Shown here: in pieces, positions 17,568 to 51,823 of the stretch
How positions within the stretch are numbered: position 1 is the stretch's first letter
Layout of the letters: each line of letters opens with the position of its first letter
From: Nocardioides caldifontis
GTDB lineage: Bacteria > Actinomycetota > Actinomycetes > Propionibacteriales > Nocardioidaceae
Assembly (NCBI RefSeq): GCF_008087345.1
Contig: NZ_ML701736.1
Location: 1 to 64,000 of the forward strand
Direction of reading: 5' to 3'
Length of the DNA stretch: 64,000 nt
The notes under the pieces: model-generated
Database searches by the model: none
Told to the model about the DNA's origin: nothing
The model's input: the letters and a program-made list of their open reading frames with translations, nothing else
Position numbers and translations under genes: made by a program

Positions 17568-17611
17568 CCGCTATAACCGCCCCGGCGTTCTTGCCGGCTC
17601 GGTTATAGCGG
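17568..17611. repeat. 44-bp compound inverted repeat
   Basis: CCGCTATAACCG (17568-17579) is mirrored exactly by CGGTTATAGCGG (17600-17611). Inside it CCGGC (17582-17586) pairs with GCCGG (17593-17597) around GTTCTT. This gives a 12+5 bp two-step hairpin. It is A/T-richer than a local terminator and lies about 320 bp before the methyltransferase gene. It could be a terminator, an operator or a remnant of a mobile-element end. Confidence 0.7.
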
Positions 17612-25777: not shown

Positions 25778-27340
25778 ATGCCGACTGCTCGCTCATCCAG
25801 TTTGGAACAGGCGCTGACAACGCACTTGACTGAGGCTGGCCTCAGCGTCTTCTGGCCGGAGTCCGACGACCTGCCAAGCCTGGTCGCGGTGGATGCTCAG
25901 TGGGGCCTTCTGGTTGTCGACCTCGTTGAGCACGAGGAGGGCGCCCTTGTCGAGCTCAACCGCAAGCTCGCTCGACTTCGCAACGACATCCCGCAGATCG
26001 CACGAGTGCCCACGCAGAGGCTAGTTGTAGCCGGCGACGCAAGTGCTTCTGACGGCCGCACCTTGGCGCTCGCGGATGTATTCGAAGGCACCTTTGTCTC
26101 GGGACTCACGCCGAATGCGATTGACGAAGGTGCCGTCAGCGCGGTCACGGACCGCTTTGCACCTCGCCTCAGTATCGACGTTCCTCGCCGTGACCCGATG
26201 TCGGACGAAGGTGCGTCTGCTCGAGCTGCGCGGCGGCTCGTGCTAGACGCCACGCAGAGCGGCATCGCTTGCAGGAAAGTGGAAGACGTCCTCCTCGTCA
26301 CCGGTCCACCGGGTAGCGGGAAAACCCTGGTCCTGGCCGCTCGAGCCAAGTGGCTGGCGACCCAGAATCCCAGTTGGCGCATCGTGTTGCTCTGCTACAA
26401 CCGCTTGCTTGTCCCGTACCTGGAAACCTTGGTCTGGGGCCACGCCAACATCACGGTCTGCACCTTCGGGCAGCTGACAAGTCGACTTCGGATCCGCGTC
26501 TCCCTCGACAACGAGGAGTGGGCCAGGCAGAACGTCAAGCACGCGCTAAAGCAAGTCAAGCCGGTGTTCGACGCAGTCCTCGTTGACGAATGGCAGGACT
26601 TCATGGATGCGTGGACCCGCCTCGTCCTGGCCACGGTCCGGCCCGGGCGGGGCGGTGTGACCCTGGCCGGTGACCCCAAGCAGGCGCTCTATCGCGACGC
26701 GAACAGCGAAGTCGCCCTCGCAGGCCATGAAGTGGAGATGGCCACGCTGACCCGTCCCTACCGATCAACGCGGCAGATCCTCGAAGTCACCTCAGCGCTG
26801 GACAGGACGATGGATGTGAAAGGCCGGGAGGACGCCTTCGACGGTCAGGCGGTGGACCTCGTCTGGGCGGAGAACGTGTCAGAGCTCGGGGCCGCCATCG
26901 CTCGCGACATCCAGCTCCTCCTCGCGGAGGACAAGCGGAATCCCCAGGACATCGGAGTGCTCGTCACCCGGAAGTGGGACATCGGAAAGGTGATGTACGC
27001 CTTGAAGAAGGTCAGCGTCCCGGCGCGGGCCGTGTATCCGAACCAAGCGAAGGAGTTCGACCTGTCGGAGCCTTCGGTCAAGGTGATGACGGTGCATTCG
27101 GCGAAGGGCTACGAGTTCGACGTCGTCTTCCTGGTCGGGATGGAGCACCTCGCCGATCCTGACGGAAGCGAGCGTGCCGGTCGCGAGGGACGCTGTGGCT
27201 ACGTTGGTTCGACGCGGGCCAAGGACCAACTGGTGCTCACCTACTCCCGCGACAACGTCTACCTCGACCGGATCCGCTCGCTGCCCGATGAGCTGGTACA
27301 GCAATGGGTATGGCCCGACGACTATCCCGAGGTCGGCTGA
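25778..27340 (+). CDS. UvrD/Rep-like SF1 helicase with divergent N-terminal domain
   Basis: This 520-residue protein has about 150 N-terminal residues of unrecognised, possibly degenerate nuclease-like sequence (LVAVDAQWGLLVVDLVE). An SF1 motor follows: Walker A GPPGSGKT (about residues 179-186), Walker B-like VDEWQDF, the Q/R motif GDPKQALYRDA, and the UvrD-type C-terminal VMTVHSAKGYEFDVVF and YVGSTRAKDQLVLTYS. It is compact for a UvrD protein, with short accessory insertions. Its stop overlaps the start of the kinase-fusion gene (TGATG), so these two and the following genes form the second operon of the block. Confidence 0.8.
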   Translation: MPTARSSSLEQALTTHLTEAGLSVFWPESDDLPSLVAVDAQWGLLVVDLVEHEEGALVELNRKLARLRNDIPQIARVPTQRLVVAGDASASDGRTLALADVFEGTFVSGLTPNAIDEGAVSAVTDRFAPRLSIDVPRRDPMSDEGASARAARRLVLDATQSGIACRKVEDVLLVTGPPGSGKTLVLAARAKWLATQNPSWRIVLLCYNRLLVPYLETLVWGHANITVCTFGQLTSRLRIRVSLDNEEWARQNVKHALKQVKPVFDAVLVDEWQDFMDAWTRLVLATVRPGRGGVTLAGDPKQALYRDANSEVALAGHEVEMATLTRPYRSTRQILEVTSALDRTMDVKGREDAFDGQAVDLVWAENVSELGAAIARDIQLLLAEDKRNPQDIGVLVTRKWDIGKVMYALKKVSVPARAVYPNQAKEFDLSEPSVKVMTVHSAKGYEFDVVFLVGMEHLADPDGSERAGREGRCGYVGSTRAKDQLVLTYSRDNVYLDRIRSLPDELVQQWVWPDDYPEVG

Positions 27341-30300
27341 TGGCGGATCTGCGGGTCAAGGGCGAGTATGTAGGGCCAGGTGAGCAGCGGACCGCCGAGC
27401 ACCTCGCGGAAACCCTCCCGGAAGACTGGGTCATTTTTGCGGGCAGGAAGCTGCCAGGCCCGAACCGTGACGACGCCGACCTTGTCATCGTCGGCAAGTC
27501 GCTTGTCTTCGTCATCGAGGAGAAGGCCTGGGGTCCGACTGTCGTCGTCGACGACAACAACTGGTACGTCGGCTCAGACGCACGGCCGAACCCGCTGAAT
27601 CGTGTGGGTCAGGTGGCGCGCATCGTGGCCGGTACTCTCAAGCAGCGGGCCAACGGGTATAGGAATCTCGGTTCGGCCCACCGCGTCGTACCGGCCGTGG
27701 TCCTAAGCCACCCCAAGCTGCAAATCCTGCGTGGGCACAACCACGACGAACGGGAGCACATCTGGGCACTCTCGGAAGCCGCGGATGCGATCCTGGCTCT
27801 GGACGAGCGATTCCCGGGATCGGGCCTGGGCGTCGCCCGTCGCCCCGTCATCGCCTACCTCGACGACCTGCCGAAGCCCGACGGCAAGCCGACCCTTGGC
27901 GGGTACACGCTGGATTCCCGGGTTGCCAGCGCCGGACGGGAACAGGCGTGGTCCGCCACGGATTCGACCGGCGAGCGGCTGGTGCTGAAGTGCTATCCCT
28001 CGGCGGCCTTTGGCGCCCACGGGGATCCCGAGGAGTTTCTGCGACGGGAGTACGTCGCTGTCAACCGGGTTGCAGACCTCGGCCGGACGTGGCGCGCGTT
28101 CCCACCCTTCAAGGACGACACCGGCAGCCTCTTCGTCGTACCGGTCGTGCCCCCCAGGGGCGGCATGACCCTGCGTGCGTCGGTGCAGGACGGGGTGCCT
28201 GAACGTCGTGACGGCCGGTTGGACGACCAGATCGCGCGGGCTGTGACCATCGACGCCTTCCGCGCGCTTCAGGACATCCACGACGCAGGCCTCGTGCACC
28301 GGGCGCTTCATCCCAAGCGCGTGTGGCTGCACCAGAAGCGGCGCGTCATGTTCAGCGACCTCAACTTCGCCCGTGTCGTGGGCGACGAGTCGATCGCCCT
28401 GTGGGCCGACGACGGCGACATGAGCGAGGACTACCGGGCGCCCGAATGCGCGCCCAGCCTCGCGCTCGCGAACAGCAGGTCGGACGTGTTCAGCCTGGCG
28501 CTGTGCCTCGGCTACTGGTTGCTGGGAAGAGACGTCATGGAGCTCACCCACGAGGAGCTGGGCCGCGCCGTGGCCACGACATATCCGTGGGCCGAGCCGA
28601 TGCTCCGGGCGCTGTCTGGTGCCTCGAAGGACCGGCCTCATGCCGGAGAACTGGCCGACGAGCTCGTGGCGCCCACGCCGTCGCCGGAGCCGATACCAAC
28701 GCCCTTGGGGGTTTTCGAGGAGGGGGGCCTGATCGCTGATCGCTACGAGATCGTCCGCAAGCTGGGCAGCGGGGGGTTCGCGACGTCGTGGAAGGTCTAC
28801 GACCGTCAGCGCGAGCTGCCCATGGTGCTCAAGCAGTTCCACGAGGACGTGCCCGACAACGTGCGCGCCGAATTCCAGTCTGCCCACGGACTGCACTACG
28901 ACTACTGCGGAAGCGTCTACGACATCCATGTCAACGAGGCGCCGCACTACCTGGTCTCGGAGTACGTCGAGGGCGAGAGCCTCGCCGACGAGGGCCAGGC
29001 GTTCGCAGTCGAGCAGCTGCGCGACATCGCCGTCTGCATCCTCAAGGCCCTCGACTACATTCACAACCGCGACCGGGTCCACGGGGACGTCACGCCCTCA
29101 AACGTGATCGTGTCCCCGGACGGCAGCAGTGCGAAGCTGATCGACTTCGGCCTCATGGTGCGCGCCGGTAAGCGGCCGGCCGGGCAGACGCCCAGGTTCG
29201 CGGCGCCGGAGTTGAGCGACGGCGAGCCCGCGACTGTGTCCAGCGATCTGTTCGGCTTCGCCGCGACCATGGCCTACGCCATGCTCGGGCGCCCGGTTAG
29301 CTCGACGGCGTCCGGCAGCTTCGAGTTGATCCCGCCGACCCTTGCAGAAAGGGAGGCGTGGGGCCACGGCGGAACAAGGCTGCTGGAGACGTTCTTGATG
29401 GCAGCCAAGTTGGCGCCGGTTGACCGCCCGCGATCCGCCGCGGAACTTCTCGACCTCGTGCGGAGCACGCGCATCGCCTCGGAACCCGACACGCCCTCAG
29501 ACGGCGAGGACACGTTCCGTGTGAACCCCAACGTCGCAGCGATCAGACGGCTGTACCGCGCGAGCTCGATCGGCAACGCCGGCAACCGCGGGCTGGACGA
29601 TGAGTTCGCCCTCGCGACGTATGTCCCCACGCGCCTCGACCAGAACCTCGTTCCGAGGGTGTTAGCCGGCGACCTGGACGTGGTACTTCTCAGCGGCAAC
29701 CCAGGCGACGGAAAGACCTCGCTCCTGGTGCAACTTGGTCAGTTGCTCAGGGACCGCGGCGCGGAGGCTCTCCACTCGGACGACGCAGGATGGGTCCTGC
29801 GACTGCGGGACCGCACCTTCCATGCGGTGTTCGATGCCAGCGAAGCTCACGGATCGCTGAGCTCAGATGAGCTGGTGAAGCAGGCGCTGGAGCCGGTCCG
29901 CACGTTGAGCGATGGACCGGCCACCGCTCTCATCGCGGTCAACGACGGGCGCCTGCACCAGTTTTTCGAAGACAACAGCGATATCTACGAGGACTGGTGG
30001 TTTGAGATCCAGGACCAGATCGCGGGACGAGACCCCGGCACCTCCCGGGTAGTGCTCGTTGACCTGAAACGCCGATCGTTGGCTTCCACGGACGCAACGG
30101 GCTTGTCCGACCGGGCCCTCGCGTCCCTGGTCCGACCCGAGCTCTGGGACACCTGCTCCTCCTGCGCAGCTCGGACGGCCTGCCCGATCCTCGTCAATAG
30201 GGACCGCTTGAGCGGGCCGGGCGCGGGTGCGTTCAGCGAGCTGATGCTGATCAGCCACCTGCGGCGCCGGCGCCGGGCGACCTTCCGTGACGTCCGGTCC

Positions 30301-31131
30301 GCGGCCGCCTGGGTCATCACGGGTGATCGGGACTGCGCCGAGGTCCACGAGCTGGTCCGGCAGGGGAGGAACGCCAGCTTGATGTCCGACGCCCTCGCGC
30401 ACGACCTCGCCTTCGCGACCGACAGCAACGACTATCTGATCAACGAGTGGAGCGACCTGGATCCCGCGCTGGTGCCGAACCCGAGTGTCGACAGGGCCCG
30501 GCGGCAGTCCTCCACGGCCGACGGGACCGCGTTCCTCCGCAGCAGCGAGAGCGCCGCCCGCTCCATCTACTTCGGCGAGCGCGTCGCCGACGACATCACT
30601 CGCAGCGATGTCCGCGTGTACCGCTACTTGAGCGAGTTCGTCAGGATGCTTCACGGCAACGACCCCATCGCCACCAGGGACCGCCTGCTGCTCGGCATCA
30701 GCCGGCTGCTCGGCGCGCCCGGCTACCGGTCGTCCGGCCTTGCGTTCGGCGTCGGTGCAGGGGACTCGAACTGGGCCATTCTCCACGCGATCGAGAGCGA
30801 GGCCTTCACCGTGCACGTCGCCGATTCGACGCACCCATTCGTGGAGACGATGCCCGACCTGCTCGAGCTTCGCCACGAGTCTGGGGCGTCGAAGCACACG
30901 CTCAGGCTCAACCTCGACACCGCCGAGATGATCCTGCGCGCCGCCGACGGCGAGCTCGTGGACGACCCGGCGTCTGACGCGATCCGCCAGGAGATCGATG
31001 CCTTTGTCGGGCAACTGAGCCGCCATCCCTCGAAGGCCGCGCACATCGTGGACTCGTCCGGCTCGGTGACCACAGCCACCATCCGCGGCGTTGCGATCTC
31101 GTTCGCGCTCGACGGGGAGGAGCGTTCGTGA
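27340..31131 (+). CDS. NERD-pseudokinase-kinase-DptF-like ATPase fusion
   Basis: This 1263-residue protein starts at ATG 27340. Residues ~10-130 form a NERD nuclease-related domain (GEQRTAEHL, DDADLVIV, VIEEKAW). Residues ~190-450 are kinase-like but HRD is HRA (320-322) and DFG is replaced, so this is a pseudokinase. Residues ~470-720 are an intact Ser/Thr kinase: GSGGF loop (476-480), HGD (581-583), DFG (602-604). The last ~500 residues carry a P-loop GNPGDGKTS (786-794) and a CSSC..CPI cysteine cluster as in DptF, the ATPase of Dnd phosphorothioate restriction. NERD plus kinase recalls PglW. Its stop overlaps the next GTG. Confidence 0.75.
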   Translation: MADLRVKGEYVGPGEQRTAEHLAETLPEDWVIFAGRKLPGPNRDDADLVIVGKSLVFVIEEKAWGPTVVVDDNNWYVGSDARPNPLNRVGQVARIVAGTLKQRANGYRNLGSAHRVVPAVVLSHPKLQILRGHNHDEREHIWALSEAADAILALDERFPGSGLGVARRPVIAYLDDLPKPDGKPTLGGYTLDSRVASAGREQAWSATDSTGERLVLKCYPSAAFGAHGDPEEFLRREYVAVNRVADLGRTWRAFPPFKDDTGSLFVVPVVPPRGGMTLRASVQDGVPERRDGRLDDQIARAVTIDAFRALQDIHDAGLVHRALHPKRVWLHQKRRVMFSDLNFARVVGDESIALWADDGDMSEDYRAPECAPSLALANSRSDVFSLALCLGYWLLGRDVMELTHEELGRAVATTYPWAEPMLRALSGASKDRPHAGELADELVAPTPSPEPIPTPLGVFEEGGLIADRYEIVRKLGSGGFATSWKVYDRQRELPMVLKQFHEDVPDNVRAEFQSAHGLHYDYCGSVYDIHVNEAPHYLVSEYVEGESLADEGQAFAVEQLRDIAVCILKALDYIHNRDRVHGDVTPSNVIVSPDGSSAKLIDFGLMVRAGKRPAGQTPRFAAPELSDGEPATVSSDLFGFAATMAYAMLGRPVSSTASGSFELIPPTLAEREAWGHGGTRLLETFLMAAKLAPVDRPRSAAELLDLVRSTRIASEPDTPSDGEDTFRVNPNVAAIRRLYRASSIGNAGNRGLDDEFALATYVPTRLDQNLVPRVLAGDLDVVLLSGNPGDGKTSLLVQLGQLLRDRGAEALHSDDAGWVLRLRDRTFHAVFDASEAHGSLSSDELVKQALEPVRTLSDGPATALIAVNDGRLHQFFEDNSDIYEDWWFEIQDQIAGRDPGTSRVVLVDLKRRSLASTDATGLSDRALASLVRPELWDTCSSCAARTACPILVNRDRLSGPGAGAFSELMLISHLRRRRRATFRDVRSAAAWVITGDRDCAEVHELVRQGRNASLMSDALAHDLAFATDSNDYLINEWSDLDPALVPNPSVDRARRQSSTADGTAFLRSSESAARSIYFGERVADDITRSDVRVYRYLSEFVRMLHGNDPIATRDRLLLGISRLLGAPGYRSSGLAFGVGAGDSNWAILHAIESEAFTVHVADSTHPFVETMPDLLELRHESGASKHTLRLNLDTAEMILRAADGELVDDPASDAIRQEIDAFVGQLSRHPSKAAHIVDSSGSVTTATIRGVAISFALDGEERS

Positions 31132-32741
31132 CCTTCGCCATTCCCAAGGGACTCACCCAGAACTCGCTCATCACCGAAAACGTCATCAACGTCGAACTCA
31201 ACGACACCGACATCGACCGGATGATGACGAAGATCCTCGAACGGGCCGTCAAGCGCGGCCGAGTTTCGGGTTCGCGCGTGGACACCAAGGCCTACGACGG
31301 TTATCTGGCAAAGCTACAGCGGTCCCCGCACCTCGCGGGCGTTGACGGGGACCGGGGGCTCGAAGTCCTCGACGGGTGGATCCGGTCGTCCGTTCTGGTC
31401 CAGGAAACGGCAGGCCTGCGCCGGGACACGGTTCAGATGGGCTACCTCCGCCCGCTCACTATCGCTGCTTACCGCAGTGGGCTACCTCGGAGCCAATCCC
31501 GCAACCGCCGAGCGGACGCGCTCGCCTACAAGGCAATGGCCCGCATGATCAAGGCTCGTGGCGACGAGAACGAGTCGGCGGTCATTCAGACACTGTTCTT
31601 GGAAACTTTCGGCCGGGGCGTCGAGCTGGGCCCGTTCCCGTCGACCAACCCCTCGTACGACGGCTCCGAGGTCGACATCGACACGCTTCTGGCCCTCCGG
31701 TTTATCGAGCAGTTCGAGGGGAACGAGGCGCACAACCGAGACCTCGAGCCGCTCGACCCGCCCGTACCCCTTGCGGTTGACCCAGTCGGACAGGACCTCC
31801 TCGACTTTCTGACGTTCTACGGCCCCAAGCTCCCGGTCGCCGAGGCGTATACGCACCTCTCAGCCCTGCTGAGCCTGCGCCTGTTCCAGCTGCCTCTGGT
31901 CACCGCACATGCGGTACGGTCTCTACTCTCCACCGGGGCTCAGCTGCCCGTAGGAGCCAATCCGTGTGCCCAGTACTTCGACTTCGTGCGCCTGCGCGGT
32001 CACCCGTCGGACGAGCTGTCACGGATGTCGGTCCAGCGCGACCTCGAGGTAATGCGCACGTTCTTCGGTGACCGCTTGTTGCTGCGCTCGCTGCAGGAGG
32101 CCGTCGCTGTGCTGCCGACCAAACCGGATCTGGGCGAAACAGCGGCAGCGCGGATGGCTGCTCTTGCCGCGCTGAAGGATGACGGCATGATGCAGATGGC
32201 CCTACAGATGCAGATCAGTACGATCGAGGCGGCGCTGGCGCCGACGGACGAGGGTCGTGCGTTCGTCGCGGAGGTGAGGGCCTCAGAGGGCCTCACCGCA
32301 GCTGATCAACTGACGGCGATCCTCGTCGAGGGTTTGCGCAAGCGGGGTCTAGAGAACCAAGTCAAGTGGTTCCACTCTGCCGGAGGCATCAAGAAGGCCT
32401 ACGGCGTTCTTAAGGGCGACCTTCGTTCCCGCGGCAGCTGGCGTTACTCGCTTTCCGACGAAGGGTTGGTCGCTCTGCTGTGCATGGTCTTCGTAGACCG
32501 CAGCGGTCAGCGGACCACGACCAGGCTGCCGATCCGGGAGGTGCTGAGCCGGCTTGAGCGACGCTTCGGGATCCTCATCGACGCACCCCCGGCGGATCTC
32601 GACTCCGCCGACGCACGCGCCGGCGCGGCGGCGAACCTGTCTGCCTTCACTCAGCGGATGAAGCTCCTCGGCTGCTTCGAGGGGCTGTCCGACGATTTCA
32701 ATGCTCAGTTCGTGACCCGACCCAGGGAGGCGGCCAAGTGA
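31128..32741 (+). CDS. DptG-like restriction component (tentative)
   Basis: This 537-residue, mostly helical soluble protein starts at a GTG overlapping the kinase-fusion stop. No catalytic motif is visible. The segment LDFLTFYGPKLPVAEAYTHLSALLSLRLFQLPLV (which spans about residues 222-255) resembles the way DptG proteins read. Its place between a DptF-like ATPase and a DptH/HerA-like ATPase is the Dpt F-G-H order. It is longer than Dnd-associated DptG. The call rests mainly on position and general character. It should be treated as an uncharacterised scaffold subunit until a profile search is run. Confidence 0.5.
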   Translation: MTFAIPKGLTQNSLITENVINVELNDTDIDRMMTKILERAVKRGRVSGSRVDTKAYDGYLAKLQRSPHLAGVDGDRGLEVLDGWIRSSVLVQETAGLRRDTVQMGYLRPLTIAAYRSGLPRSQSRNRRADALAYKAMARMIKARGDENESAVIQTLFLETFGRGVELGPFPSTNPSYDGSEVDIDTLLALRFIEQFEGNEAHNRDLEPLDPPVPLAVDPVGQDLLDFLTFYGPKLPVAEAYTHLSALLSLRLFQLPLVTAHAVRSLLSTGAQLPVGANPCAQYFDFVRLRGHPSDELSRMSVQRDLEVMRTFFGDRLLLRSLQEAVAVLPTKPDLGETAAARMAALAALKDDGMMQMALQMQISTIEAALAPTDEGRAFVAEVRASEGLTAADQLTAILVEGLRKRGLENQVKWFHSAGGIKKAYGVLKGDLRSRGSWRYSLSDEGLVALLCMVFVDRSGQRTTTRLPIREVLSRLERRFGILIDAPPADLDSADARAGAAANLSAFTQRMKLLGCFEGLSDDFNAQFVTRPREAAK

Positions 32742-35700
32742 CGGCGTCGGCTAATGAACTGCTCACGTCCACACTCGCCCACCATCTTGCCTCACTACTC
32801 GACGAAGCGGAGCCGGGACACTGTGTGCGCGTCGACGACGTGAATGCCGCGCTGGCTCCCGATCTCGCCTTCGCCCTCTCGGAGAAACTGTCGAAGGCCG
32901 CCGTCCACGTGCTTCGGGCGCACCCCGAAGGCCCCCGGGAGATCGCGGCCGAGCGCGCGATCGAAATCCGCAACCGCAAGCAGCAACCGTGCGTCCTAAT
33001 CGTGCCGGCGGGGGAGGGCCACGCCGCTAGCTCCCTCGACAACTCGTTCCAGCGAATCCCCGTCCTCGACGCTTACACCCACGTCGAGCGACTGCTGCTC
33101 GATCGCATCGGCGACCAGGTTGTCCGCGAGCTGGCCGTCCGGAACCGGCGCTGGCTGCGGGCGCAACGCCAGGAGGCTTGGACCGAGTTCCTCGCCCAGC
33201 TCTGCGTCGAACCGACCGAGGCCGCCTTCGGGCGGAACCTGTGGATGGTGGGTCTGGTGCCAGACCACGCCGACCACCCAGGCAACCGCGTCGAGCGGAA
33301 CCGGCTGGCGGTGCAGGCGATCAGCCGCCCCTCGCGGCCGGCGGCCGCGATGGACGAGCGGTTCACGGTCGCGGGACTCCAGGAGGGGCCATGGCGCGGG
33401 CCACTGCGCCGGTTCTGCGAGCAGCGGGGAGCGCAGCTCGCCAACCCGCGCCTCTGGGCTCAGGCGATCGCCGAGCACCATCCCGAGCTCACCTTCGACA
33501 AGTGGCCCCTGGCGGAGGACATCGCCGAGGACATCGACGAGCTGGAGGTCGTGCCCTTCACCAGTGCGGCGGGCACAGTCGAGAAGTGGAGCAAGCTCAA
33601 GCAGGGAGCCGACGGCCAGCTGGTCCTCGAGGTGCCAGAAGGAGGTACCGGCTCCGTCACCGTCAAGTGGAGGACCGCTCCCGCCAACATTGCCGCGGTG
33701 GCCAAATGGGAGCTGTCGGTAGTCCCGCCGGATGATCTGCGCACAGACGACACCGAACCTCTAGCGTCGACAGTGATCGCGGGCGGCCGCCGTCAGGGCA
33801 CTGTCAAGGTTGCCCTCGAGGAGGACTCCCTGACCGCCGGGACCCGGTTCGTGGTGAGCGTACGGGCGATCGCGGAGCACGGGGAGTCGGTCAACCTCAC
33901 GTCCGGCGATCCGGCCTCCGCGGACAGTCAGGAGTTCCAGATCGTCGGCGCCCAGGAGGGCGAGACGAAGACCCGGCGGACAGCGGCCACGAGCGTCCCC
34001 GAGGCCGTTGTCCGCGCTGCGCTTGATGGTCTCGACGATCTGTCCGAAGACCTAGTCTCCTGGGACTTGGACGGACAGGTCTTTTCCCTGCGGCTTGGGA
34101 ATAGGCGCGCCGTCCAGGTCCGGATCTGTGCCCCGCTGATCAGCTGCCAGCGCACGGCCACCGCGCAGCCCGACCGGCCGGTGCACTTCCGCGCACGCGG
34201 AGCCCACGGCACGCCGCTTGAGCCGGACCGGGTCGAGGAGATCGAACTGGCGCTTCCCGCCGCGCTCAAGCGGGCGCGCTCGGAGTTCTTGGCGGCCCTC
34301 GCTGGCACGCCGCACCGGGACACGATCGAGTCGGCGGCCTGGAGTGAAGGGCTGCGCGAGCTCGCCGCGACGTATGCCGCGTCCTACAAGCGGGCGCTTG
34401 AGCTCCCAGGACAGCAGCTCGACGACCTGCTGCGGATGGACACGATGTCGCTCGACGTCTTGCGTAGCAACACCGTCATCCGTGCCGTCATCGTCCTCCC
34501 GACGCACCCGCTGCGTGCGGCCTGGGCGGCGACTCACGACCTCGTTCTGCGGGACTGGGCTCAGCAGCTCACCGAACTGACCCCGCGTGGTGCGCGTGCG
34601 CGCATGGTCGATGCCGATCTAGTCGCCCAGGTCGTGCCGGCGAACCTGCCGTTCACCGTCCCCGTCGATGGCGAACTCGCGGTGTACACCGAGGAGCTGA
34701 CGTTTGGCTCCGGGCTCTATCTCGTGCCCGGCGACGTCGATAGTGAAGCGGCCGCCGAGTCTGTGGCCTCGGTGCTGGAGTTGCAGCGGGCCGGATCGAC
34801 GATGCGAGCGTCGTCGCAGATGGTGGCCGAGCGGATCAAGGCCTACGAAGCCGCGCACAACCCCGGTGGGACGCTGCGGGTGCTGGCGGTCAACCCCGGT
34901 TCAGGGGGGTTACTCGCCGGCGCTCTTCGTGAACCTGTCCAGCAGGGCGAGGATGATGAGGAGGACCCGCGGCGGCTGGAAATCCTGGTTTACTCCGACA
35001 GCCCGTCCTACACCCAGCCCGTGCCGGCCCTCTCCGGCCTGCAGCAGAGTATGCGTCGCCGCGAGCTCGCTCGGAAGACTACCCACCTGACGCCTCCGCT
35101 GTCCCTGTCGGTGCGCCGCGTCAACGACCTCAAGACGGACCCGCAGGGCGCACACCTGACGGTCATACAGGACATCGGCGCACCTGCAGTCGATTTCGGG
35201 CCGGATCCCGAACGTCGCCCGGCGTTCGAGGACCTCCTCGTGCCGATCGTGACCCGCTCGTTCACCGAGGCTGGTGACCTGATCTGGGAGAGTGCTGCGG
35301 CGACCGGCCCGTCCACCGGTGGCGGCGACGGCGAGCTGCCCGTCGTGCACCGCACCCACCAGCGCGCTGTGGCGCGGCTCGCCTCGTCGCCGGAGGGGGC
35401 AGTTCCGGCCGTCAAGGTGGTGCTGGACGGGGAGCATCAGGCCCGCATCGGCGCGGCCCACGCCAGGTCGGATTGGGTGATCGGCGTCGACCGGTTCATC
35501 GGTGTTGACCTGTTCGAGCTCGGCACCGGCGCGATCGGCGAGTCCTACATTCTCGACTATGCCCCGGACTTCGTTGAGGGCATCGGCGAGCGCCTCACCG
35601 TGACCACTGCGAACCGTCGCGAGGTGGAGCTTCTCCTTGAGGAAGCAATGCGCGAGCTTGGCCTCGCCGACGTTCAGCACAGCGTTGGCGGGGTGCTGTC

Positions 35701-37747
35701 CACGTTGGCCGTCGTCTCCGGTCGGTTGGCGCTGCGGCTGCTCGAGAACACCAACCACGCCCGCGAGGCGGTTGCCCTGGCGGCGGTCATCACCCACCTG
35801 CGGGAACGGGGTGACCTCGAGGGGCTGATCGTCGTACCCGTCGATGCCCACCCGGAGATCTTCGGCGTCGCAGCCCGCGACGAAGGGGCCAGGCGTCGCT
35901 GCGACCTTCTGCTTGTGCGCGTCGGCCAGCGCTCCTTCAAGATCGAGTGCGTCGAGGTGAAGTCCCGAAAGGAGGCGCGCCTGCCGCAGATGCTCGCTGA
36001 CCACATCGTCGACCAGCTGCAGGACACCAAGCGCTTGCTGCAGTCGCGATTCTTCGCCAGCGACCCTCCTCGCATCGACATCAGACTGCAGCTGGCGCGT
36101 TTGGCGAGCGTCCTCCACTATTACGCCGACCGCTCTGTCCGGCACGGCCTTATCTCCGGGGAGAGGGCAGCCGACGTTCACCGTCACATCGACCGGGTGA
36201 CCGAGGGGCAGATCGCTCCGGAGATTTCCCTGCGGGGATATGTGATCAGCCTGAACGGCGATGAGGGATTCAGGAAGAAGTACGGCGAGATCCCGCTCAC
36301 CGTCCTGACGGCGAACGACTTGGGCCGACTCGGCTTCACCACCGTACTGCCGACGCCCTCTGCGCGCGGAAAGGAGGGCGAAGGGTCCAGGCCCGGGGCC
36401 TCGGCCCGGCGACCGGGCGACCCCCCGGTTTACCCGAGCCCCGATTCCCGACCAGACGCCGAGCCAGGGGAGCCCGCACCGCAATCGGATCCCCAGCCGG
36501 AGCCCGAGGCCCAGTCCCGAGCCAACAGTTCGAGTTCCCAGCCTAATGGCGTGCCGTCCGCAGGCCCGGAATCGGTAAGCACAAGCGGGACGGCCCAGGT
36601 GAAGAAGCGGGCTACGAGCACCTCTACTGACGGTCCCGCGGTTGCGGCGCCCTTCTCTGACGGCCCCGTGGCGGATCCCGAGGTCGGCACCGTGGAGCCG
36701 GTCGCCAGAAGGAATCCGAGCGAGGTCGAGACTGTCTTGGGGGTCGACGCAAACTCCTCTGATGTGCTGTGGCGAGTCAGCACCCAAGGCAGCCCGCACG
36801 CCTTCATCGTCGGGATCCCAGGGCAGGGCAAGTCCGTGACGACTCGTCACATCATCCGGAGTTTCGCCAACCAGGGTCTGCCGTCACTGGTCTTCGACTT
36901 TCATGGTGACATGGCGGCTGATCCTCCCTCGGGAGCAACGGTCCTGAACGCAGCGGAGGGGCTGCCGTTCAGTCCATTCGAGGCGGACGTACGAGTTGGA
37001 CGACCGATCAACACGACCGCGTGGGAAATCTCGGAGATCGTCGCCTATGTCACCAAGCTCGGCGAGATCCAGCGGAATCACGTTTATGACGCGCTTCAGG
37101 CAATGTACTCGGCGCACGGTTGGCACGGCACTGAGCGAGGTGACAGCCTGCCGGTTATAAGTGAGTTCGGTGATGCCGTAGAAGCAGCCGAGGCCAACGC
37201 CCGTGGCCGTAACGCGCGCCAACGGCTGAGGCCGATGACGGACTTTGGGTTATTTCGCGATGACGCAGATGCGGCCTTCGACCTGCTCAACGCCTATCGT
37301 GGTGGCGTCGTCGTCGATGTGAGTCAGCTGGGGCTCGAAGAGGTGCAGCTCTTCGCTGCGTCGTTCATCCTGCGCAAGATCTACCGAGAGATGTTCAAGT
37401 GGCCACAGGATCGAGCTATGAAGCTGGCGGTCGTTCTCGACGAGGCCCATCGGATGGCGCGCGACGTGACCCTGCCGAAGCTAATGAAGGAGGGTCGGAA
37501 GTACGGGGTGAGCGTCATCGTGGCCAGCCAGAACGCCGACGACTTCCACAAGGATGTCCTTGGCAACGCGGGAACGAAAATTGTCTTCCGGACCAATCAC
37601 CCTGCTTCGCGGGCTGTTGCCGGATACTTGCGAGGGCGAGGTGGGCTCGACCTAAGCGTGGAGATTGAGAAACTCAACGTGGGCGTGGCGTACGTGTCGA
37701 CGCCCGACCACCCACAGGCGCGGCGCACCTACATGCAGGAGTACTAG
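32738..37747 (+). CDS. Giant HerA/DptH-like DNA-translocating ATPase
   Basis: This 1669-residue protein starts at a GTG overlapping the previous stop. The first ~1200 residues have no clear motif, apart from a nuclease-like KIECVEVKSRKEA stretch near residue 1070. A Pro/Ser/Glu-rich linker lies at about 1205-1310. The C-terminal ~350 residues are a FtsK/HerA-type motor: Walker A GIPGQGKS (1359-1366), Walker B VVLDEAH (Asp1568, Glu1569) and a downstream VIVASQNADDF sensor. DptH of Dnd systems has the same size and C-terminal motor. It is the last gene of the block and should be the motor of the restriction complex. Confidence 0.75.
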   Translation: MTASANELLTSTLAHHLASLLDEAEPGHCVRVDDVNAALAPDLAFALSEKLSKAAVHVLRAHPEGPREIAAERAIEIRNRKQQPCVLIVPAGEGHAASSLDNSFQRIPVLDAYTHVERLLLDRIGDQVVRELAVRNRRWLRAQRQEAWTEFLAQLCVEPTEAAFGRNLWMVGLVPDHADHPGNRVERNRLAVQAISRPSRPAAAMDERFTVAGLQEGPWRGPLRRFCEQRGAQLANPRLWAQAIAEHHPELTFDKWPLAEDIAEDIDELEVVPFTSAAGTVEKWSKLKQGADGQLVLEVPEGGTGSVTVKWRTAPANIAAVAKWELSVVPPDDLRTDDTEPLASTVIAGGRRQGTVKVALEEDSLTAGTRFVVSVRAIAEHGESVNLTSGDPASADSQEFQIVGAQEGETKTRRTAATSVPEAVVRAALDGLDDLSEDLVSWDLDGQVFSLRLGNRRAVQVRICAPLISCQRTATAQPDRPVHFRARGAHGTPLEPDRVEEIELALPAALKRARSEFLAALAGTPHRDTIESAAWSEGLRELAATYAASYKRALELPGQQLDDLLRMDTMSLDVLRSNTVIRAVIVLPTHPLRAAWAATHDLVLRDWAQQLTELTPRGARARMVDADLVAQVVPANLPFTVPVDGELAVYTEELTFGSGLYLVPGDVDSEAAAESVASVLELQRAGSTMRASSQMVAERIKAYEAAHNPGGTLRVLAVNPGSGGLLAGALREPVQQGEDDEEDPRRLEILVYSDSPSYTQPVPALSGLQQSMRRRELARKTTHLTPPLSLSVRRVNDLKTDPQGAHLTVIQDIGAPAVDFGPDPERRPAFEDLLVPIVTRSFTEAGDLIWESAAATGPSTGGGDGELPVVHRTHQRAVARLASSPEGAVPAVKVVLDGEHQARIGAAHARSDWVIGVDRFIGVDLFELGTGAIGESYILDYAPDFVEGIGERLTVTTANRREVELLLEEAMRELGLADVQHSVGGVLSTLAVVSGRLALRLLENTNHAREAVALAAVITHLRERGDLEGLIVVPVDAHPEIFGVAARDEGARRRCDLLLVRVGQRSFKIECVEVKSRKEARLPQMLADHIVDQLQDTKRLLQSRFFASDPPRIDIRLQLARLASVLHYYADRSVRHGLISGERAADVHRHIDRVTEGQIAPEISLRGYVISLNGDEGFRKKYGEIPLTVLTANDLGRLGFTTVLPTPSARGKEGEGSRPGASARRPGDPPVYPSPDSRPDAEPGEPAPQSDPQPEPEAQSRANSSSSQPNGVPSAGPESVSTSGTAQVKKRATSTSTDGPAVAAPFSDGPVADPEVGTVEPVARRNPSEVETVLGVDANSSDVLWRVSTQGSPHAFIVGIPGQGKSVTTRHIIRSFANQGLPSLVFDFHGDMAADPPSGATVLNAAEGLPFSPFEADVRVGRPINTTAWEISEIVAYVTKLGEIQRNHVYDALQAMYSAHGWHGTERGDSLPVISEFGDAVEAAEANARGRNARQRLRPMTDFGLFRDDADAAFDLLNAYRGGVVVDVSQLGLEEVQLFAASFILRKIYREMFKWPQDRAMKLAVVLDEAHRMARDVTLPKLMKEGRKYGVSVIVASQNADDFHKDVLGNAGTKIVFRTNHPASRAVAGYLRGRGGLDLSVEIEKLNVGVAYVSTPDHPQARRTYMQEY

Positions 37748-37805
37748 CCTTCGACGGCGGGCCCTCAGGCACGGTCCGGACAGCAATGTTCCAGTTGGCA
37801 AGCTG

Positions 37806-37916
37806 TTATGAGCCGTTGCATCCGAAACTTCCGAAGCCGAGCACCTCGGCCCACGTCGTCGGTGCGCCGAACGCGGTGAAAGCCGCGGTGTTCAGCCAGT
37901 TGGTGACGCTGTCCAT
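37806..37916 (-). pseudogene. pnuC: Truncated pnuC N-terminus at the right edge of the defence block
   Basis: The frame starts at an ATG overlapping the nrtR stop (TGATG). Its first 28 residues (37916-37833) include NTAAFTAFG and TTWAEVLGF, which read like the beginning of the nicotinamide riboside transporter PnuC. After EVLGF the expected first membrane helix is replaced by a few unrelated residues and a TAA at 37806-37808. PnuC normally has about 200-250 residues. nrtR followed by a NAD-precursor transporter is a natural pairing. The break lies near 37833 and probably marks where foreign DNA replaced the gene. No remainder was found at the left edge. Confidence 0.55.
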
Positions 37917-38662
37917 CAGTTCCCCCTCGTCCTGCCGCGGGGCCGCTGGTCACGAGGGAGCAGCAGACGGCGGCGTTCGTCGTCCGACAGTTGTCGCTGC
38001 TGGCGTGTCAGGTACAGCTGTGCCGGTCGCCCGCCGCTGCTGCGCACCGCAGGCGAGCCGTCGCGCTCGAGCACCGGCGACAGGTGCGGTGTCATCCGCC
38101 GGTTGAACGTGTCGCGGAGCAGCGGTTCGCCGAGGACGGCCTCGTGGACGGCGCGCAGCTCGGCGAGGGTGAACGGTCCGGCGAGCAGGCCATCCGGGTC
38201 CGGGCGCCGCTCGTACCGCGCCCGGATCGCGGCGACCGCAGCACTGACGATGTCGGCGTGGTCGTAGAGCAGCGGGCGCTTCGGTCGCGGGCGACCCTGG
38301 AGGTCCACGCCCACCAGCTCCCCCTGCGCGCTCTCGAGCTCGTCGGCGGGCAGGGCGAGTGCGTGGGCGAGCGACATCGTCCATGCACGCGGGTCTCTCG
38401 CCGGGTCGTCGAAGACCCCGAGCAGAGTGAGGCGGGACGGCGTGATGCGCAGCCCGACCTTGATCCCGAGGACGTCCGCCACGGCGTCCTCCATGGTCTG
38501 CTGCGGCCGGAGGAACCGGCCGGGGAGCGCCCACGCGTCGTCCACCGGTTGCAGGAGGATGCCGAGCCGCCCGACCGCGGTCCGCCCCTCGGCCGGCAGC
38601 ACCGTCATCAGCGCGAGGTCGACCGCGACGTTGGGCCGGGGGTACCGGTTCAGCTCTGCCAC
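37916..38662 (-). CDS. nrtR: NrtR-type Nudix-related transcriptional regulator
   Basis: The N-terminal Nudix-fold domain has a degenerate Nudix box (GRFLRPQQTMEDAVADVLGI, with the REUXEE core lost), so it should bind but not hydrolyse its ligand. The C-terminal winged helix includes GPFTLAELRAVHEAVLGEPL and a GRPAQLY motif. This is the NrtR architecture, an ADP-ribose-sensing repressor of NAD-metabolism genes. GTG 38662 is preferred (248 residues). The longer frame to 38722 would run through the divergent promoter. No clear ribosome-binding site is seen, so it may be leaderless. It diverges from the ADP-ribosylglycohydrolase gene and precedes the truncated pnuC. Confidence 0.75.
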   Translation of the reverse strand: MAELNRYPRPNVAVDLALMTVLPAEGRTAVGRLGILLQPVDDAWALPGRFLRPQQTMEDAVADVLGIKVGLRITPSRLTLLGVFDDPARDPRAWTMSLAHALALPADELESAQGELVGVDLQGRPRPKRPLLYDHADIVSAAVAAIRARYERRPDPDGLLAGPFTLAELRAVHEAVLGEPLLRDTFNRRMTPHLSPVLERDGSPAVRSSGGRPAQLYLTRQQRQLSDDERRRLLLPRDQRPRGRTRGN

Positions 38663-38672
38663 GTGCGGCAAC

Positions 38673-38692
38673 TTAGCGCGAATATGCGTTAA
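38673..38692. promoter_or_regulatory. Candidate NrtR operator
   Basis: The divergent gap contains the imperfect 20-bp palindrome TTAGCGCGAATATGCGTTAA, with half-sites TTAnCGC and GCGnTAA around an A/T centre. It is A/T-rich against a GC-rich background and lies between nrtR and the ADP-ribosylglycohydrolase gene. It could repress both when NAD turnover, read as ADP-ribose, is low. Confidence 0.5.
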
Positions 38693-38722: not shown

Positions 38723-40258
38723 ATGAGACTCGCATCAGCACAGACCGACCGCGCCGCCGGCGTCCTGCTCGGGGCAGCCGTCGGTGACGCGTTGGGTGCC
38801 GGCTACGAGTTCGGCACGGCCCGGCTCGCGCCGGACGAGCAGCCGCGCATGATCGGCGGCGGGCTCGGCGGGTTCGAGCCGGGGGAGTGGACCGACGACA
38901 CGGCGCAGACGTGGGCGGTCGCCGAGGTCGCCGCCACCGGCGCCGACCTGCGCACGGACGAGGCGCTGACCGACGTGGCCCGGGGCTTCGCCCGGTGGTA
39001 CGCCGAAGGGCCGCCGGACGTCGGCGTCCAGACCTCCCGCGTGCTCGGATCCGTCGGCCGGCAGCCGACGGCCGGAGCGCTGCGGGACGCCGCCCGCGAC
39101 GTCCTGGCTCGCACCGGCCGCGCCGGCGGCAACGGTTCGCTGATGCGCACCTCGCCGGTCGCGCTCGCGCACGTCGACGACGCTTCGGCCACCGCCGAGG
39201 CGGCGGTCGCCGTGAGCGAGCTGACCCACGCCGACCCCCGAGCGGGTGAGGCGTGCGTCCTCTGGTGCCTGGCGATCCGGCACGCCGTGCTCGAGGGCGA
39301 GCTCGACGTCCGGGCGGGGCTACCGTTCCTCGATGCCGACGCGCGGACCTTCTGGGAGGCGCGCATCGACGAGGCGGAGTCGATGCCGCCGTCGACATTC
39401 CGTCCCAACGGCTACGTGGTGACCGCGCTCCAGGCGGCGTGGTCGGCGATCGTCTCTACACCCGTGGCTGACGCCGAGCCGCACCGTCACCTCGTCGACG
39501 CCCTCGCCACGGCGATCCACATCGGAGACGACACCGACACAGTCGCCTCCATCGCGGGTGCGCTGCTCGGCGCGCGGTGGGGCTCGTCCGCCGTGCCGGC
39601 GGAGTGGCGGCGCGTGGTGCACGGCTGGCCCGGTCGTACGGCGCGGCAGCTGGTGGACCTCGCCATGCTCACGATCAACGGCGGACGGCCGGACTCCTAC
39701 GGCTGGCCCGGTGTCTCCCGCGTCGACTACCACGGCTGGACCGGCAACGGCCGGGTGACCGTGCACCCGGACGACGACCGGGTCTACCTCGCGGGGATCT
39801 CCGCCCTCGACGACCTCCCCGCGGACGTCACCGCGGTCGTCAGCCTCTGCCGCACTGGAGGCGAGCACGTGCCAGGCTCGGTGACGCACATCGACTTCCG
39901 CCTGGTCGACAGCACCGCTGCCGACAACCCGAACTTGGCCTACGTCATCGACGACGCGGCGCGGACCGTCCAGGCTCTCCGCGATGAGGGGCACACCGTG
40001 CTGCTGCACTGCGTGGCGGGGCAGAGCAGGACGCCGACGGTGGCGGCGCGGTACTCGATGCTGCGGGCCGGCGTGTCAGCCGACGAGGCGCTCGACAAGG
40101 TCTGCGCCGCCCTGCCGGACCCGCGGCCTAACGAGGTGCTCGTCCGCGCCCTCCGGAAGCTGGATGGACTCCGTCGAGAGCAGGGTGACGATCGGGCCAC
40201 GCGTCACGCGGACAGCGGGGCTCCTTGGAAGACCTCCGTCCGGTGCCACGACACGTGA
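38723..40258 (+). CDS. ADP-ribosylglycohydrolase fused to a dual-specificity phosphatase
   Basis: This is a 511-residue two-domain protein. Residues ~8-320 are an ADP-ribosylglycohydrolase (DraG type) with GAAVGDALGAGYE, the Mg-binding EWTDDTAQ and the C-terminal IGDDTDTVASIAGALLGA. Residues ~330-490 are a cysteine phosphatase with the P-loop HCVAGQSRT (Cys430, Arg436, the CX5R motif). The first half would remove ADP-ribose from proteins, nucleic acids or metabolites and the second would dephosphorylate a partner or product. The 3' end overlaps the convergent endonuclease gene by 55 bp. It is divergent from nrtR, which suggests control by ADP-ribose/NAD status. Confidence 0.82.
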   Translation: MRLASAQTDRAAGVLLGAAVGDALGAGYEFGTARLAPDEQPRMIGGGLGGFEPGEWTDDTAQTWAVAEVAATGADLRTDEALTDVARGFARWYAEGPPDVGVQTSRVLGSVGRQPTAGALRDAARDVLARTGRAGGNGSLMRTSPVALAHVDDASATAEAAVAVSELTHADPRAGEACVLWCLAIRHAVLEGELDVRAGLPFLDADARTFWEARIDEAESMPPSTFRPNGYVVTALQAAWSAIVSTPVADAEPHRHLVDALATAIHIGDDTDTVASIAGALLGARWGSSAVPAEWRRVVHGWPGRTARQLVDLAMLTINGGRPDSYGWPGVSRVDYHGWTGNGRVTVHPDDDRVYLAGISALDDLPADVTAVVSLCRTGGEHVPGSVTHIDFRLVDSTAADNPNLAYVIDDAARTVQALRDEGHTVLLHCVAGQSRTPTVAARYSMLRAGVSADEALDKVCAALPDPRPNEVLVRALRKLDGLRREQGDDRATRHADSGAPWKTSVRCHDT

Positions 40259-41118
40259 GCCGACGACGGCAAGACAGTCCCCGGCCGTGGTCGGAGGCTG
40301 TTGCCGTGCAGGTCGTACACGAGCCTGCCGATGCCGTCGCCCGCCGAGAACCGGTCGGAGACGACGATCGCGTAGGAGTCGTCGAGCCCCATGGCGCCTC
40401 TGTCAAGGAGCTTGTGGTGCAGCGAGCAGAGAGCGAGCCCGTTGTCGAGAGTGTCGGGTCCGTCGAAGTTGAACCAACGGACGTGTGCCGCTTCGAGTCC
40501 GACAGGAGCGTGTCCGAGCCGGCCGTCGAAGCCACAGAACGCGCAGCGGTTGTCCCAGGCCTGCAGGACGGCTGACCGCCACACCGCGCTCCGCTGCCGT
40601 CCGGCCGTGGTGCCCGGCGCCGCTCCGGTCGTGAGGATGACTTGCGGGTCGAGACCCACCGCCTGCAGCACGTCGGGTGCGACGGTCGGTGGGAACTGGC
40701 TCTCGACCAGGAGCCGCGCTGCCTTCTCCAGCGCGCCCGGCGCCTTCAGCTCACGCTCGAGACTCGGTTCGAGTCGTCCTGTGACGGGCGCTTCGTCGAG
40801 CGGTCCGACATTGTCCATCGGGACCTCGCGGTCCAGGAGCCAGACCCCGTCCGCGCGCAACCGGGTGAAGGGGTACGCCGCCGACTGCCGGCGCCCGGTC
40901 CTTGACGGTCGACCGAACTGCGCGATGAGGTCCGCGAGCTCGCCCTCGACGTCGGACCATCGCATGCTGCTCGTCCCCTGGTTCGCCAGCCTGCCGAGCG
41001 CCAGCAACGCCAGCAGCGGCTTGTGAGGTGACCGCTTCCCGTCCTGTTGGTGCTGACGCAACGATGCAAGCCGCGCGACGACCGCTTCTGCTGCAGAGCG
41101 GCCGTCGGAGTGAGTCAT
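40204..41118 (-). CDS. Phosphorothioated-DNA-dependent HNH restriction endonuclease (ScoMcrA-like)
   Basis: This 304-residue type IV restriction enzyme starts at ATG 41118. The N-terminal half contains a sulfur-binding-type domain beginning RSPHKPLLALLALGRLA (29-45) and including the AYPFTRLRADGVW segment. The C-terminal HNH nuclease has CAFCG (192-196), LEAAHVRW (208-215) and NGLALCSLHHKLLDRG (226-241). Homologues such as ScoMcrA cut DNA with phosphorothioate links and are toxic beside Dnd modification genes. None are present here. It converges on the ADP-ribosylglycohydrolase gene and diverges from the NERD gene. Confidence 0.82.
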   Translation of the reverse strand: MTHSDGRSAAEAVVARLASLRQHQQDGKRSPHKPLLALLALGRLANQGTSSMRWSDVEGELADLIAQFGRPSRTGRRQSAAYPFTRLRADGVWLLDREVPMDNVGPLDEAPVTGRLEPSLERELKAPGALEKAARLLVESQFPPTVAPDVLQAVGLDPQVILTTGAAPGTTAGRQRSAVWRSAVLQAWDNRCAFCGFDGRLGHAPVGLEAAHVRWFNFDGPDTLDNGLALCSLHHKLLDRGAMGLDDSYAIVVSDRFSAGDGIGRLVYDLHGNSLRPRPGTVLPSSAHVSWHRTEVFQGAPLSA

Positions 41119-41224
41119 GGCGCCGACACTAGCGACGGGAGAGGTCGAGCGTCCGGTCTCCCCGAACTTGGCCACCGGTCCGATTTGTCCGATTAGGATG
41201 GCGCATCTGGAGCAGGAGGCGAGC

Positions 41225-42112
41225 GTGAGAGCAGGGCATTCCGCCGACGAGGTGGCTCGGCGCGCGCGGGAGAACGCTGAGCGACACCTGCGGCGAGCGG
41301 AGATGTTCGAGCGCGGTGCCGCGGGCGAACGGGCGACTGCCGCTGCGCTCGGTGCGCTCGGCTCTGGCTGGGTCGCACTGCACGACCATCGCTGGCCAGG
41401 CCGACGCCTCGCGAACATCGACCACGTGCTGGTGGGCCCGGGCGGCGTATTCGTCATCGACTCGAAGAACTGGTCCGGCGACGTCCGGGTCGTCGACGGG
41501 ATTCTGCGACAGAACGGGCGCTCGCGCGAGAAGGCGGTCGCTGCGGCCGCGGACGCGGCTTTGGCGGTGTCAGAGCTCGTAGGTCCGCATGCCGAAGTCG
41601 TACGACCCGTGCTCTGCTTCACCGGCGACCGTGAGCTGGCGGGCTGGGCCCGGGACGTGATGGTGTGCTCGGTCGACAACCTCAGGACGATGCTCGAGAC
41701 ACGCCCACAGGTGCTCGCACCGGAGGTCGTGCGGGACCTCGCGGTCAGGGTGGACGCGTCGATGCAGAGCGCGTCGCCGATCTTGCCGGCCCGGCCGCAA
41801 ACCGGCCCACGGCGACCGGCTCCGTCTGAGCCGCCCGCGAAGACCACGCCGAACGGACGTGCCCGCCGTTCGAAGCGCCGTTCCCCGGGTCGGGTCCTCG
41901 CGGTGCTTGTCGGGTGCTTGGTGCTGGTCGCGAGCGTGCCGACCGTCCTGCCGGCACTTGGCGACGCCGTGGCCGACTTCGTCGTCGAGTCGACGAAGCG
42001 GGACGTCCACACGTGCGCCGGAAGGCAGCCGGCGGAAGCTCCCCGTCAGGACGGCGTCGGCCAGGACGGTAAGCGTGAGCGGGCGTCGGCACTCACCGAC
42101 AAGTGCGAGTGA
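41225..42112 (+). CDS. NERD-domain membrane-anchored nuclease-like protein
   Basis: GTG 41225 is chosen because GGAGG lies 5-7 bases upstream. Longer in-frame starts at 41117 and 41198 lack this. The 295-residue product has an N-terminal helical stretch, then a NERD nuclease-related domain with the expected Glu35 (GAAGERATA), Asp66-His67 (NIDHVLV) and Asp79-Ser-Lys81 (VIDSKNW). After a Pro/Arg-rich linker comes one hydrophobic segment (about residues 220-240) and a hydrophilic tail with two Cys. A TAGGAT hexamer at 41193-41198 could be its -10 element. It lies back to back with the phosphorothioate endonuclease. Confidence 0.72.
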   Translation: MRAGHSADEVARRARENAERHLRRAEMFERGAAGERATAAALGALGSGWVALHDHRWPGRRLANIDHVLVGPGGVFVIDSKNWSGDVRVVDGILRQNGRSREKAVAAAADAALAVSELVGPHAEVVRPVLCFTGDRELAGWARDVMVCSVDNLRTMLETRPQVLAPEVVRDLAVRVDASMQSASPILPARPQTGPRRPAPSEPPAKTTPNGRARRSKRRSPGRVLAVLVGCLVLVASVPTVLPALGDAVADFVVESTKRDVHTCAGRQPAEAPRQDGVGQDGKRERASALTDKCE

Positions 42113-51194: not shown

Positions 51195-51743
51195 TCAGTC
51201 GATGAGCTCTACCGGACAGACCTGCATCTCGTACGGCGCCGACACCGTGCCGCTCGCCTCGCCGGTGAGCCGGAGCTCCTCGTCGTACCGACCGTCGCGC
51301 AGCTGCCACACGACGAGCTCGAGCCCGATCGGGTCGAAGACCCAGTACGACGCGCAGCCGGCCTCCTCGTAGCGGGCGTTCTTCAGGTTGAGGTCGAACA
51401 GCCGGGTGCTCGGTGACAGCACCTCCACGGCGAGCAGTGGAGCCACCGGAAGGTTCCGGTCGGTGAGGTCACTGCGCCGCGTGACGATCAGGTCGGGCTG
51501 CACCACCGTGTCATCGGCCAGCCGGACCTCGAACGGCGCCAGCCGCACCGCCAGCTCGTGCGGGCACTTCGCCGCGAGGAGGAGGTGCAACTTGCCGACC
51601 GCGCCCTGGTGGCGGTTGCTCGGTGCCGGTGTCACGACGAGGGTGCCGTCGACCAGCTCGTAGCGGTGCCCGTCATCAGGCATCGCTTGCAGGTCGTGGT
51701 GCGTCAGCGGCCTGCTCCAGGGGAGCGTGGTCATGGTCGTCAT
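51195..51743 (-). CDS. Uma2-family (DUF820) PD-(D/E)XK-type protein
   Basis: This 182-residue protein starts at ATG 51743 behind AAGGAG. The Uma2 features are present: RYELVDGTLVVTPAPSNRHQ near the N-terminus, VVQPDLIVTRR, the LLAVEVLSPSTR core with the catalytic-type Glu, and RYEEAGCASYWVFDP. Uma2 proteins have a restriction-endonuclease fold and occur in many copies in some bacteria and cyanobacteria. Their function is unproven, with links to mobile DNA suggested. Confidence 0.85.
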   Translation of the reverse strand: MTTMTTLPWSRPLTHHDLQAMPDDGHRYELVDGTLVVTPAPSNRHQGAVGKLHLLLAAKCPHELAVRLAPFEVRLADDTVVQPDLIVTRRSDLTDRNLPVAPLLAVEVLSPSTRLFDLNLKNARYEEAGCASYWVFDPIGLELVVWQLRDGRYDEELRLTGEASGTVSAPYEMQVCPVELID

Positions 51744-51823
51744 CGTGCTCCTTGTCGTCATGCCCGGCAATCGTGGGGCCCGGCACCGACAAGCCGTGCC
51801 GCGAGGCGCCTACGGTGTGGAAC

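Follow-up and report, generated by a model that had tools for sequence, protein, structure and literature searches.

A pnuC remnant at the edge of a variable defence island between nrdJ and an nrtR-like gene in Nocardioides caldifontis

The 64,000-nucleotide stretch of Nocardioides caldifontis DNA analysed here (contig NZ_ML701736.1, positions 1 to 64,000; hereafter the window) carries 28 codons at 37833-37916 on the minus strand that are confirmed, by comparison of sequences, as the real 5′ end of a pnuC gene. A broken pnuC is ordinary by itself, and the point of interest is its site, together with the NAD-linked genes at the border. The remnant shows where DNA was joined at the border of a defence island, and the interval on which it abuts, from the ribonucleotide reductase gene nrdJ to an nrtR-like regulator gene, is a variable, recurrently refilled hotspot. 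Within the family it is a recurrent site for Pgl/BREX, Druantia, Dpd, ZacC, SIR2 and MADS-like genes, and the ADP-ribose system at its border is predicted to be a defence in its own right.

The remnant begins with an ATG at 37916, overlapping by 1 bp the TGA stop codon of the nrtR-like gene (37918-37916, minus strand), and opens a frame of 36 codons (37806-37916, minus strand) that closes with TAA at 37806. Its first 28 codons encode MDSVTNWLNTAAFTAFGAPTTWAEVLGF. The sequence-only reading had taken these codons for the start of PnuC, and the alignments bear this out. When the remnant was compared by tblastn with 30 PnuC loci of the family, the best match was to the PnuC of the genome designated G345 (locus L053), with 28/28 residues aligned and 75% identity (21/28, E 5e-13), and the region matched is the true N-terminus of a complete PF04973 protein. 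The next eleven among the PnuC loci listed share 11-17/28 residues with the remnant. At the DNA level, 70/84 positions are identical to pnuC of G345, five codons differing silently and seven in a way that changes the residue. A search of the organism’s own genome with a complete PnuC of 220 amino acids returned the remnant as the only match (E 5.3e-9), and no PF04973 domain was found in that genome (33 contigs, 99.65% complete). The 36-codon frame gave no PF04973 (NMN_transporter) domain and no PnuC match against Pfam, NCBIfam or PDB sequences; this silence of the family models is expected, as the Pfam domain begins near the end of the remnant. Compared with the PnuC transporter of nicotinamide riboside and NMN, the remnant thus has the N-terminal 28 residues in common, most closely with the protein of G345, but it is without any membrane helix or Pfam domain and cannot transport.

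The break falls at codon 28, or possibly codon 30 (37827-37833), in agreement with the junction near 37833 proposed earlier. Two further residues (GS) after codon 28 are compatible with some PnuC proteins of the class sample. Third-position GC is 26/28 in the remnant codons and mixed in those beyond, where the eight non-PnuC codons and the TAA that close the frame (37806-37832, minus strand) have no significant similarity to PnuC and show a shift in codon use. These codons form part of a junction segment that extends from the stop codon of a HerA-type ATPase gene to the remnant (37748-37832), and for these 85 bases there was no match among the sequences compared; DNA homology with relatives of the neighbouring gene block stops before or at the HerA stop. 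A continuation of pnuC similarity beyond the stop codon (the genome match reached query residue 49) was considered and rejected, as 48/400 shuffles reach the score of the 85-base segment, and unrelated pieces of intergenic DNA exceed it. The remainder of pnuC was said to be lost and not to lie at the left edge; it is also absent from all 33 contigs. Flanking repeats had been proposed as a check on insertion, and a comparison of 17403-17926 with 37748-37833 gave none above chance, direct or inverted, the longest direct match being 7 bases and the longest inverted match 9 bases, both inside the shuffle range. No integrase was seen among the genes of the block, and no tRNA at the site.

The interval is occupied in N. 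caldifontis by six genes, all on the plus strand. The first (17927-21934) encodes a type IIG-like or DrmMI-like methyltransferase (PADLOC PDLC03620, 836 bits), and is followed by genes for a PLD-SNF2 (HKD-SNF2) helicase (21916-25392) and a UvrD-like helicase (25778-27340), both assigned by domain and PADLOC matches. The fourth gene encodes a protein with NERD and protein kinase domains that is mad6/PglW-like (27304-31131, PADLOC mad6 5e-36), the fifth a mad7-like protein (31128-32741, mad7 3.7e-8), and the sixth the HerA-type ATPase, with a mad8/DndH-like C-terminal part (32738-37747, mad8 2.8e-20), so that homologs of mad6, mad7 and mad8 stand in order. The PADLOC models concerned (mads_6-8, SspF/G and DndH) represent the MADS, Ssp and Dnd defence systems, which the block resembles in its run of consecutive genes for a kinase, a mad7-like protein and a HerA/DndH-like protein. 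It differs from MADS in that the best match of its methyltransferase is a type IIG model, and there was no mad1-mad5 among the best 25 PADLOC matches listed for genes 1-3. The block has a GC content of 0.62-0.70, lower than the 0.73-0.74 measured at 38-40 kb and over much of the flanking DNA (nrdJ itself has 0.66-0.69), and a value below that of the 38-40 kb flank fits a foreign origin. A strong inverted repeat, CCGCTATAACCGCCCCGGC / GCCGGCTCGGTTATAGCGG, lies at 17568-17611, between nrdJ and the methyltransferase gene.

Relatives of the HerA C-terminal part were found in 4/340 other genomes of the family, and HerA had no match in plasmid and phage records. One of the four, G341 (locus L155, contig C30), has relatives of all six genes, with 77% DNA identity over 7.4 kb in the methyltransferase-SNF2 pair. 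This pair is opposite in orientation to the UvrD-kinase-mad7-HerA genes in G341, and the block therefore resembles two exchangeable modules. In neither of the two relatives with an nrtR ortholog does the related block lie between nrdJ and nrtR: in G341 it is on a different contig from that genome’s own nrdJ-nrtR place, and in G249, where nrdJ is about 0.5 Mb away, it is found in the other orientation, 22 kb downstream of nrtR. There was no PnuC match near the block relatives in G341 and G249, and at 1e-30 the remaining two genomes, G191 and G156, lack an nrtR ortholog.

The left border of the interval is nrdJ (14535-17402, plus strand), encoding a class II ribonucleotide reductase; its DNA is 87% identical to that of congeners up to the stop codon and no further. 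Two of the congeners, G002 and G003, were tried as empty-site references and set aside; their nrdJ is 87% identical but the sequence downstream is unrelated. An nrtR ortholog, defined by an E of at most 1e-30, is present in 27/340 other family genomes (28 loci), and a contig scan with the nrtR protein gave one remote contig. In 12 of these 27 genomes nrdJ is convergent with nrtR on one contig and within 40 kb, with gaps of 0.5-36 kb; for the other 15 the link is missing, the two genes lying on separate contigs or at a distance of hundreds of kilobases. In N. caldifontis 20.5 kb separate them (17403-37915). The gap is short in G157 (about 0.5 kb), G165 (1.6 kb), G162 and G341 (2.6 kb each) and G255 (3.8 kb), and long in G275 (about 15 kb), G122 (25 kb), G265 (29 kb), G139 (34 kb) and G215, G228 and G118 (36 kb each).

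The contents of the interval differ almost completely from genome to genome. PADLOC gave matches at 1e-8 or better for 20/27 interval proteins (G215, 5; G122, 3; G118, 6; G139, 3; G265, 3; G228, 2; G275, 2; G345, 3), a set made up of the larger proteins, which favours defence genes, and excluding those that cross the ends of stretches. Of 10 control proteins, drawn from the flanks in the window and from the DNA that follows nrdJ in congeners, one gave a match, a weak one, these controls being smaller on average than the scanned interval proteins and not matched in size. Strong matches comprise PglW, PglX, PglZ, DruE and DruF in G215; DpdD, E, F and H in G118; a DpdE/ZorD-like protein in G275; ZacC in G122 and G139; PDC-S37 in G139; and a type IV restriction enzyme in G265. 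In G345, which is outside the 12, DrmD, DrmMI and DrmA of DISARM type directly follow nrdJ. The 36-kb interval of G228 gave no convincing defence match in the two proteins scanned, only a weak TnsB-like one, and the interval of G157 holds a piece of a NOV_C gene. SIR2_2 genes lie in the interval, adjoining nrtR, in G162, G165, G341 and G118, and that of G255 is 84% identical to the one in G165; yet no ADP-ribosyltransferase or sirtuin was seen among the window genes scanned. In G165 the SIR2_2 gene starts within the end of nrtR (L107:5753-7258, a 4-bp overlap), as it does in G255 (the region L112:12483-13979). Such an overlap suggests that an NrtR-like repressor and a putative NADase may be co-transcribed.

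Defence hotspots and islands are known for conserved borders and exchangeable defence contents. The nrdJ-nrtR interval is like them in having fixed borders and swapped defence contents, and differs in what the borders are, namely nrdJ and the glycohydrolase/NrtR-like gene pair described below, with no integrase or tRNA seen in the window copy. It offers a fixed address at which to seek unknown defence genes. No description of a hotspot at nrdJ-nrtR, or of a link between ADP-ribosylglycohydrolase and PnuC, was visible in the literature searched, mostly as judged from listings.

The distribution of nrtR and PnuC bears on a further claim, that the cell had traded a NAD-precursor transporter for the defence block. 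Its components, the truncated pnuC, the junction and the loss of the 3′ part, hold; the exchange itself is not supported. PnuC of any kind is found in 157/341 family genomes and in 0/4 congeners, and the nrtR ortholog is likewise absent from all four, so the whole segment of nrtR, pnuC and glycohydrolase is accessory. With pnuC accessory here, the idea of a trade has no baseline of a cell that normally owns the transporter. An intact nrtR-pnuC pair beside nrdJ, which was to be sought in close relatives, occurs in 0/12 of the genomes in which nrdJ and nrtR are linked. After nrtR, no remnant-like or PnuC-like peptide was found at any of the 28 nrtR loci (flanks of about 1.5 kb, or less where a contig ended sooner), and in longer stretches PnuC was seen only in G345 and G123, both sampled because they carry PnuC.

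As to which event broke pnuC, we infer that the gene was probably cut beyond codon 28-30 by a recombination that placed or trimmed foreign DNA in the nrdJ-nrtR hotspot. The ancestral state would have been an nrtR-pnuC operon with overlapping stop and start codons, beside the glycohydrolase gene. This operon rests on the remnant and on the different gene order of G345, as no relative has an intact nrtR-pnuC in that order. The nrdJ side of the interval would then have been refilled, or trimmed later, so that foreign DNA came to abut pnuC behind codon 28-30, with loss of the remainder of the gene, presumably in the same recombination event. Given that neither an integrase, a tRNA nor a flanking repeat was found, the join may have been made by end-joining or by exchange of flanks.

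As defence genes of various kinds occupy the interval in many relatives, the break in pnuC need not be the work of the present block. The gene could have been truncated before the block arrived, by an earlier occupant or a simple deletion, and we regard this as a serious possibility that nevertheless falls short of probable. The variation of interval contents among relatives speaks for it, as does the 85-bp junction segment, which resembles neither pnuC nor a known end of the block. On the other hand, the 28 codons show no visible decay, with the frame open, third-position GC still high and a strong match to PnuC, and the break is thus probably not old. It is very unlikely that the 36-codon frame is a short gene with a function under selection, for example one for a leader peptide or a small regulator: it does have an ATG, a plausible ribosome-binding stretch and the overlap with the nrtR stop, but relatives with the same short frame and no pnuC, which would have undermined the identification of the remnant, were not found at any of the 28 nrtR loci or 52 longer loci, and its last eight codons, with their altered codon use, have no homolog here. 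A misjoin inside pnuC is a slightly poorer explanation still; the genome is a draft of 33 contigs, but the junction sits within a contig of 606 kb, the remainder of pnuC is on no other contig, and the convergent arrangement of nrdJ and nrtR in the window recurs in 12 relatives. That the resemblance to PnuC arose by chance, in a stretch of only 28 residues covered by no family model, can be dismissed in view of the whole-genome E value, the exact N-terminal register, the DNA identity to G345 and the position directly after an NrtR-type gene.

Recombination in the hotspot, our preferred explanation, leaves the genes at the right border in place. The nrtR-like gene (37916-38662, minus strand) is best given a GTG start at 38662, as the coordinates of the sequence-only reading imply. 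Its product contains an NrtR winged-helix domain (PF21906 NrtR_WHD, 3.8e-8, 33.8 bits against a cut-off of 27), while no NUDIX match was obtained from Pfam at 0.001 and the Nudix part is recognised only via homology to NrtR models. The NCBIfam NtrR model scored 57.1 bits, far under its cut-off of 400, and for these two reasons the protein is named NrtR-like. Divergent from it, as in relatives, is a gene for a fusion of ADP-ribosylglycohydrolase (ARG) and dual-specificity phosphatase (38723-40258, plus strand; PF03747 2.1e-48, PF00782 3e-12). A conserved site between the two genes, TTAACGC-N6-GCGCTAA at 38673-38692, is likely the operator of the divergent pair, a prediction based on its recurrence upstream of nrtR. 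The motif GCGCTAA, chosen after inspection of the same sequences, is exact in 21/28 upstream regions (N. caldifontis and 27 loci) against 0.145 expected from mononucleotide shuffles, and the two-part site TTARCRC-N(4-9)-GCGCTAA occurs in 10/28. An operator search based on 8-bp palindromes gave a weak excess, with at least 7 matches in 11/28 regions against 18.9% of shuffles, and 8 matches in none.

Section 3.8 of PMC9503650 describes predicted anti-phage systems that undo ADP-ribosylation, in which an ARG-phosphatase protein occurs together with a Nudix-HTH repressor, ARPP and TY-Chap proteins that bind peptides. The pair in the window matches these ARG-centred systems in that ARG is coupled to a phosphatase, with PF03747 and PF00782 in one protein, and in that the divergent nrtR-like gene provides the neighbouring repressor of Nudix or WYL type. 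The nrtR-ARG pair of G157 has a TY-Chap gene next to it, and that of G162 an ARPP-1 gene. On a third feature of such systems, the lack of a coupled ADP-ribosyltransferase or sirtuin, the window genes scanned and the SIR2_2 genes beside nrtR in relatives point different ways. PnuC does not appear in that section, nor did a count of the term find it anywhere in PMC9503650; its remnant comes after the repressor gene in the window, and the PnuC of G345 shares a frame with the glycohydrolase. There is also a likeness to the NrtR regulons of NAD metabolism, for which PMC6800001 gives a nadR-pnuC-nrtR cluster in Streptococcus suis, in the NrtR-type winged helix and the pnuC neighbour. The window gene differs from the regulons as presented there in being tied to a glycohydrolase-phosphatase and not to nadABC, as well as in its score below the NtrR cut-off.

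In G345, a single open frame of 736 codons (L085:9727-11937, minus strand) spans an ARG-phosphatase region and PnuC, with PF03747 at 34-320 and PF04973 at 537-716; the phosphatase part is recognised by similarity to the ARG protein of the window, Pfam having given no score. This may be a natural fusion. A ribosome-binding-like stretch precedes the PnuC ATG within the frame, so PnuC may be produced on its own as well. The frame is followed by a nadR-like gene, and a diverged NrtR-like gene, with a NUDIX match, is divergent from it; nadR, PnuC and ARG lie on the strand opposite to nrdJ, at a distance of about 32 kb. ARG adjoins pnuC in 1/58 PnuC loci (30 of the family and 28 of the class sample). 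The shared frame hints that PnuC belongs to the ARG system, and the window and G345, two cases in different gene order, point the same way as thin evidence.

If so, PnuC would have served the ADP-ribose system by importing NAD precursors. The NrtR-like repressor and ARG-phosphatase, with their likely shared operator, make up the core of the predicted anti-phage system and need no pnuC to be complete. Tentatively, and with more doubt than confidence, we propose that PnuC was one arm of an ADP-ribose-sensing anti-phage system, in which ADP-ribose released by phage enzymes or SIR2-type NADases would free the NrtR-like repressor from DNA, and the cell would then produce both the glycohydrolase-phosphatase, to strip and recycle ADP-ribose, and the transporter, to refill NAD. 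G345 would keep this arrangement in its ARG-phosphatase-PnuC frame followed by nadR, while N. caldifontis would have lost the transporter arm and had the adjacent slot filled by another defence system. This suggests a connection, open to testing, between the uptake of NAD precursors and ADP-ribose defence.

To the right of the glycohydrolase gene, the window also carries a NERD-domain gene (41117-42112) and a gene for Uma2, a putative restriction endonuclease (51195-51761), each with a relative in the corresponding neighbourhood of G157.
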